From contig NZBN01000007.1 in assembly GCA_002687935.1 (NCBI GenBank), positions 69,030-133,029 of the forward strand: a stretch of DNA of 64,000 nt, given 5' to 3'. The notes under the pieces were generated by a model. It did no database searches. It saw only the letters and a program-made list of their open reading frames with translations, and was not told the DNA's origin. Positions 50,436-57,694 of this stretch are shown in pieces. Origin of the DNA: Methanobacteriota archaeon (GTDB taxonomy: Archaea; Undinarchaeota; Undinarchaeia; Undinarchaeales; Undinarchaeaceae). Within the stretch, counting starts at the first letter, position 1. The number at the start of each line of letters is the position of its first letter. The position numbers and the translations under genes were made by a program.

Positions 50436-50566
50436 TGCGGGGAGTAGGATTCGAACCTACGAAGGCACTAAGCCACATGGTGTCTTATCATCACGTCCTG
50501 CGACGTTCATCGCTCAAGACTGTGTGATCTTGAGCCATGCCCATTTGACCGCTCTGGAATCCCCGC
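50436..50566 (-). tRNA. tRNA-Leu(CAA) with 47-nt intron (50482-50528)
   Basis: GCGGGGA/TCCCCGC acceptor, D arm CCA..TGG, anticodon stem CATGG/CCATG enclosing CTCAAG + 47 nt + A, long variable arm, GTAGGTTCGAATCCTAC T arm. Confidence 0.88.
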
Positions 50567-56266: not shown

Positions 56267-56404
56267 ACTTGTTTATGAGGCGCCTTCATTTATTAAGCTT
56301 TAGGGAAATTTCCTAAAAAATAAGATTTTTTCCAAATAAAATAACAAGTTAAAGTATATTCTCCAGAACAACAATGGATATATAAATAGCTTCCTGATTA
56401 GAGA

Positions 56405-56525
56405 ATTAGCCAACAGAAATAGAGCAAGTCTTTGCCAAACATCAGTTGCCGCTGATGTCTTGATTTGCTATGTTTCGAGTGTGAGTCGAATTATAGATAA
56501 GTCCTATTCAGGAGTTTATCCATTA
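56405..56525 (+). ncRNA. candidate structured non-coding RNA with own promoter
   Basis: TATATAAATA at 56379-56388; long interrupted hairpin 56416-56476 and second hairpin 56496-56520; no ORF in track; ftsZ has a separate TATA at about 56557. Confidence 0.5.
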
Positions 56526-56602
56526 AATTTTATTAATGAGTGGTTACACTCTGAGGTATATAAAGCCTTGTAACTACTCGCAAGTGAAATGGAGGGAAAA
56601 AC

Positions 56603-57694
56603 ATGGAATTCTTAGTAAAAAACGCGATGAATCGCGAACCAGAACATTCGGCAGCACCCGCTGTCGGAAAAGCAAAAATTGTAGTTGTCGGCGCTGGAGG
56701 CGCAGGCAACAACTCTATCAGCCGGCTCATGACAATGGGCGGCGTTCACGGTGCAGAAACTGTAGCAGTGAACACAGACATGCAACATCTTGAGGCCACA
56801 AAGGCTGATACAAAGATACTGCTTGGCTACAAGCTCACACAGGGGCTTGGTGCCGGAGGATATCCTGAGGTTGGCCGGAAGGCTGCAGAAGACAGCAGGA
56901 ACGAAGTCCGTGAAGTTATGAGGGGTGCACATCTTGTCTTCCTCACTTGCGGACTTGGAGGAGGTACAGGAACTGGCGCAGTTTCTATATTGGCAGACAT
57001 CGCCAAGAAGGAAGGTGCAATAGTAATCGCAACGGTTACGACGCCTTTTGACCTCGAGAAAGCCCGCCTAATAAAGGCAGAAGAAGGTCTTTCGGAACTC
57101 AGGAAAGTTGCAGATACAGTAATTGTAATAGATAACAATAAGCTTGTTGAGCAGGTTCCGAACTTGCCACTTGAGCAGGCTTTTGCAGTCTGCGATGAGC
57201 TTATAGCGACTATGATTAAGGGAATATCAGAAATAATAACTGTTCCTAGCTTGGTTAATCTGGACTTTGCCGACATAAAGTCAATAATGACTGGTGGCGG
57301 AGTTGCTATGATTGGAATCGGAGAGTCTGACACCACCAATAAAGTCGAAGAAGCAGTGAAGAGTGCAATGCAGCACCCACTTCTTGATGTCGACTACAAT
57401 GGCGGAACTGGTGCCTTAATCCACATAGCCGGTGGACCAGGAATGACTCTGTCTGAAGTTACAAAGGCAGGTAATCTGATATCCGGTGAGCTGGATCCAA
57501 GTGCCCAGGTAATCTGGGGTGCAAGAGTTGATCCTGAACTTGATGGACGAATACGAGTGATGACAATCGTAACTGGTGTCACCTCACCTCATATACTTGG
57601 AAGGAACAGTCCAAGTCCTACACTGGAAAAAAATTCTTCTCCGGGTGCTGAAGCGCCTGAAATGATGAAGGAATTGCGAATAGATTACACATAA
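56603..57694 (+). CDS. ftsZ: cell division protein FtsZ
   Basis: VVGAGGAGNNSISRL, tubulin signature GLGGGTGTGAVSILADIAKK. Confidence 0.97.
   Translation: MEFLVKNAMNREPEHSAAPAVGKAKIVVVGAGGAGNNSISRLMTMGGVHGAETVAVNTDMQHLEATKADTKILLGYKLTQGLGAGGYPEVGRKAAEDSRNEVREVMRGAHLVFLTCGLGGGTGTGAVSILADIAKKEGAIVIATVTTPFDLEKARLIKAEEGLSELRKVADTVIVIDNNKLVEQVPNLPLEQAFAVCDELIATMIKGISEIITVPSLVNLDFADIKSIMTGGGVAMIGIGESDTTNKVEEAVKSAMQHPLLDVDYNGGTGALIHIAGGPGMTLSEVTKAGNLISGELDPSAQVIWGARVDPELDGRIRVMTIVTGVTSPHILGRNSPSPTLEKNSSPGAEAPEMMKELRIDYT

Follow-up and report, generated by a model that had tools for sequence, protein, structure and literature searches.

Structured cis-regulatory 5' leaders, whether riboswitch-like or protein-binding, are folded, covarying RNAs that lie directly upstream of one gene, between a promoter and the ribosome-binding site, and 104 motifs described as orphan structured RNA candidates (PMC2864571) rest on the same type of evidence as that presented here, namely conservation of sequence and of base pairs beside a gene. 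No structured RNA is described for archaeal ftsZ in the literature within reach of our search, which left most subscription papers outside. Control of archaeal cell division is poorly known outside the haloarchaea, where ftsZ2 is controlled by CdrS (PMC7439475) and where transcript processing near the start of Halobacterium ftsZ2 has been suggested to be linked to post-transcriptional control (PMC8303175). The main text of the Undinarchaeota paper (PMC7414124) mentions neither ftsZ nor noncoding RNA.

Here we analyse the region upstream of ftsZ in a stretch of 64,000 nucleotides (the window) from a member of the Undinarchaeota, whose genome of 0.67 Mb in 11 contigs has a Candidatus Undinarchaeales MAG among its nearest relatives. 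The original prediction, that an unannotated structured RNA with a putative promoter of its own stands upstream of ftsZ, agrees with conservation, TATA-like boxes and folding z scores alike, and no Rfam 15 family matches the block or its homologues above the gathering threshold, a search by E-value also giving nothing relevant. Elsewhere in the window the Rfam matches are to rRNAs, tRNAs and RNase P; one tRNA gene, matched over 131 nt at 50436-50566 on the minus strand, is absent from the ARAGORN list and is probably an intron-containing tRNA. The divergent gene upstream of the block, probably that for AsnRS, encodes a D/K/N-group tRNA synthetase of class II. Comparisons within the genus comprise the window genome, G001 and G002, while G005 and G004 represent two further families of the same order and G003 is the most complete genome of that order. 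The features of the locus are as follows.

56351..56378, plus strand: conserved box adjoining the distal TATA box, without a difference among the three same-genus genomes, its neighbour 56303-56350 having diverged
56379..56388, plus strand: TATA box TATATAAATA of the putative distal promoter P1, with TATA-like boxes before the RNA in G005 and G004
56416..56476, plus strand: hairpin 1, a lower and an upper stem parted by an asymmetric internal loop, with apical loop UUGCCG; z -4.0 (-2.1 on the minus strand); double-sided changes in 9 of 18 core pairs
56496..56520, plus strand: hairpin 2, with a sequence-conserved CUAUU loop region; identical in the genus, CTATT...GG...TATC kept in G005 and G004
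56527..56590, plus strand: hairpin 3, in which arms of 22 nt enclose the TATA box proximal to ftsZ and which ends just before the Shine-Dalgarno sequence; z -5.3 (-2.1 on the minus strand)
56557..56564, plus strand: TATA box TATATAAA of the putative proximal ftsZ promoter P2, in the loop of hairpin 3; G005, G004 and G003 each have a TATA-like box in a similar position
56592..56597, plus strand: ftsZ Shine-Dalgarno sequence GGAGGG, read from the sequence
56603..57694, plus strand: ftsZ (FtsZ, 363 aa; Pfam Tubulin 1.4e-43, FtsZ_C 8.7e-33)

Hairpins 1 and 2 fold as had been described, the former through GAAATA/TGTTTC, AGCAAGTC/GATTTGCT, an 8/3 internal loop and ACATCAG/CTGATGT, the latter through GATAA/TTATC, and the 131-nt block has a folding z of -3.0, with equally good folds in 1 of 200 shuffles. 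The block is structured as predicted and is also conserved, with limits other than those first given it: the conserved unit begins at about 56406 (TTAG), some 27 nt past the start of the P1 TATA box, and conservation reaches upstream to about 56351, where the box at 56351-56378 may be a promoter element or the site of a regulator. In the two other genomes of the genus 56406-56526 is 97-98% identical, with 127-128 of the 131 bases of the block unchanged, compared with 83-86% identity for AsnRS, 86% for ftsZ and 67-68% for the third codon positions of ftsZ (Fisher p about 2e-15 for 128/131 against 67% at third positions). Since the spacer at 56303-56350 diverges freely, the conservation of the block is local.

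A covariance model made from the three same-genus sequences was used for a genome-wide search and gave matches in G005 (E 0.0125) and G004 (E 0.024), both immediately upstream of ftsZ and on the same strand; E-values of this size are weak if taken alone, and the position beside ftsZ is independent support. Model matches on the minus strand were set aside as echoes of the palindromes. Because MAFFT misaligned the distant homologues, we used an alignment of the five genomes fitted to the model of the first three sequences (A5), which holds three independent lineages only. The covariance check in related genomes that the original prediction proposed bears it out: compensatory changes are found in 11 of the 28 pairs of A5, hairpin 2 showing double changes in 2 pairs, and 93% of cells pair. 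None of 500 shuffles reached the covariation score of A5, and slid controls give 0-1 pairs. The changes are also visible by eye, without the model fit, as GCAAGTC/GATTTGC versus CAAAACC/GGTTTTG in the lower stem and as CATCAG/CTGATG versus CATGAG/CTCATG and GCCAG/CTGGC in the upper stem. The structures are real, beyond chance, and comparison among the genomes shows that selection acts on both the sequence and the pairing of the block.

Some parts of the structure change in distinctive ways. The apical loop UUGCCG is common to the genus and G005, and that of G004 is its reverse complement, CGGCAA; the tip of hairpin 1, CAGTTGCCGCTG in the window (56443-56454), is CAGCGGCAACTG in G004 (L023:2858-2869), which looks like a stem-loop inversion by template switching, the loop being swapped for its reverse complement. 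The internal loop of hairpin 1 varies in sequence but keeps its asymmetry, and hairpin 2 retains CUAUU...GG...UAUC across families.

In all three families that have it, the element directly precedes ftsZ and shares its strand, whereas its other neighbour changes, being AsnRS in the genus, what is by inspection an Lrp-like regulator in G005, and a different divergent gene in G004; this change of the upstream gene rules out linkage to AsnRS. The conserved structure is thus tied to one downstream gene in three families, as is characteristic of mRNA leaders. The window genome holds one copy. Among the 291 archaeal genomes outside the order (297 in all) there was no convincing match, all E-values being at least 0.22 and put down to chance, nor did anything convincing emerge from 50 loci, of which 49 carried the ftsZ of other archaea and one came from G003, so that the RNA appears so far to be restricted to the Undinarchaeota. 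A second ftsZ paralogue (L107-L111), about 52% identical, is shared by the window genome and all but one of the order's five other genomes; in the window genome it has no comparable leader, and a coding frame extends almost to its start.

On balance, and with modest confidence, we think that the block is probably the first part of a structured cis-regulatory 5' leader of ftsZ mRNA that would set FtsZ dosage. We favour a long leader because the linkage to ftsZ is kept in three families while the other neighbour changes, because hairpin 3 on the plus strand reaches the ftsZ Shine-Dalgarno sequence, and because no clear terminator separates the block from ftsZ, no clear U-run terminator being present in the sequence between hairpin 2 and the gene. 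We infer transcription from P1, read-through into ftsZ and a regulatory step, which might work as follows. Transcription from P1 would start near 56406-56409 and give a leader of about 195 nt that runs through hairpins 1, 2 and 3 into ftsZ, and transcription from P2, whose TATA box the hairpin 3 loop contains, would yield a short ftsZ leader that lacks the structures. Hairpins 1 and 2 would offer a conserved recognition surface, made of the apical loop and the CUAUU loop, to a binding partner, perhaps a protein, and hairpin 3, which abuts the Shine-Dalgarno sequence, would set translation or stability of the long mRNA. Several observations count against such a leader: the separate TATA box directly before ftsZ implies that the gene could be transcribed without the block; G003 has no model match and no detectable homologue of hairpins 1 and 2, the region upstream of its ftsZ having hairpins of its own (leader z -2.4); G004 yielded no hairpin 3; and the window shows a larger difference between the strands in hairpin 3 than G001, G002 and G005 do.

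The alternative that survives best, doubtful in our view though a serious contender, is the free-standing small RNA that the original prediction preferred to a UTR. It would run for about 115-120 nt from P1, end after hairpin 2 in the U-rich TTAAATTTTATT and act in trans, bound to a protein or paired with an mRNA, with ftsZ transcribed from P2 only and its neighbourhood a matter of linkage. Its P1 TATA box and TAG start are kept in three families: TATATAAATA is present in the window as claimed, the corresponding TATA-like box is TATATAAA in G005 and TTTAAATA in G004, and a TAG follows it by about 27-29 nt in both. Also in its favour, the separate TATA box predicted for ftsZ was located, as TATATAAA at 56557-56564, and hairpins 1 and 2 are recognisable in sequence between families whereas hairpin 3 is not. 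However, synteny was kept with ftsZ alone, a stable plus-strand hairpin 3 sits between the supposed RNA and the gene, G004 and G005 are poor in terminator-like U content, which is weak in the window too, and the features of a guide RNA are absent. The free-standing character of the RNA is therefore not established, and the evidence leans against it.

Hairpin 3 bears also on a reading at the level of DNA. The stretch after hairpin 2 that had been described as AT-rich itself forms the 5' arm of this very stable 64-nt hairpin, which takes up the interval from hairpin 2 to the ftsZ Shine-Dalgarno sequence. None of 2040 GC-matched windows elsewhere is as stable as the 68-nt window over hairpin 3, and the fold is more stable as plus-strand RNA (-20.9) than as minus-strand RNA (-10.8) because four of the six non-Watson-Crick positions are G.U, a bias that suggests that hairpin 3 is also kept as RNA. 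Among the same-genus genomes the covariation of hairpin 3 does not reach significance (1 double change; 162 of 500 shuffles), the changes being too few for the pairing to be proven in this way. The corresponding place in G005 is occupied by a hairpin (z -7.5) whose sequence is unrelated and whose loop contains TATATAA. In G004, without hairpin 3, TCCATCGA right after hairpin 2 (L023:2924-2931) could pair without mismatch with TCGATGGA at the ftsZ start codon (L023:2998-3005), a complementarity not seen in the other genomes.

The palindromes might instead be protein-binding sites, with hairpin 3 an operator dyad around the ftsZ TATA box and the whole block an extended regulatory region that makes no RNA. 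The arms of hairpin 3 are indeed symmetric about the TATA box in the genus and in G005, and the inverted apical loop of G004 would be tolerable in a site read on both strands. We nevertheless consider this improbable: the arm sequences of the two families are unrelated, which would not be expected of a conserved operator and speaks for structure over a fixed binding site; the G.U pairs favour the plus strand; compensatory changes run throughout hairpins 1 and 2, with their asymmetric internal loops; and a repeated operator dyad was ruled out, the dyad occurring once in the genome. The guide RNA for rRNA modification, H/ACA or C/D, that had also been suggested is very unlikely, for although a long hairpin with a pocket-like internal loop would suit it, no ACA lies 3' of hairpin 1 and one follows hairpin 2 in G005 only (the window has GAGTGTG and CATTAA at these places), no GA pairs for an L7Ae-binding k-turn or k-loop were seen (by inspection, tandem GA is missing where the upper stem closes on its UUGCCG or CGGCAA loop), the pocket sequence differs in each family, none of the six leaders has a C box (RUGAUGA), the box D motif occurs as CTGA only inside hairpin 1 in the genus and at 56551 in the window, Rfam gives no match, and a check for rRNA targets found matches of only 6-8 nt for the apical loop and none for the hairpin 2 loop.

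Returning to the ftsZ leader, a possible wider reading, which we offer tentatively, is that a phylum-specific family of regulatory RNAs makes FtsZ production depend on a cellular signal or a division protein in an archaeon of reduced genome, its two nested promoters yielding a regulated long-leader mRNA and an unregulated short-leader mRNA. If confirmed, this would place control of ftsZ at the level of RNA in a DPANN phylum not yet cultured and would add a new RNA family, and a covariance model of the kind used here would make the RNA searchable by others in metatranscriptomes. The element differs from the known structured 5' leaders in lacking an Rfam family and in having a second promoter inside the leader. 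It differs from the motifs of PMC2864571, with which it was compared through Rfam alone and not motif by motif, in being so far confined to the Undinarchaeota and tied to ftsZ. No cdrS-like gene lies directly before the Undinarchaeota ftsZ, and the portions examined of the haloarchaeal ftsZ2 accounts (PMC7439475, PMC8303175) contain no structured leader RNA; what the two systems would have in common is that the dosage of ftsZ is controlled.
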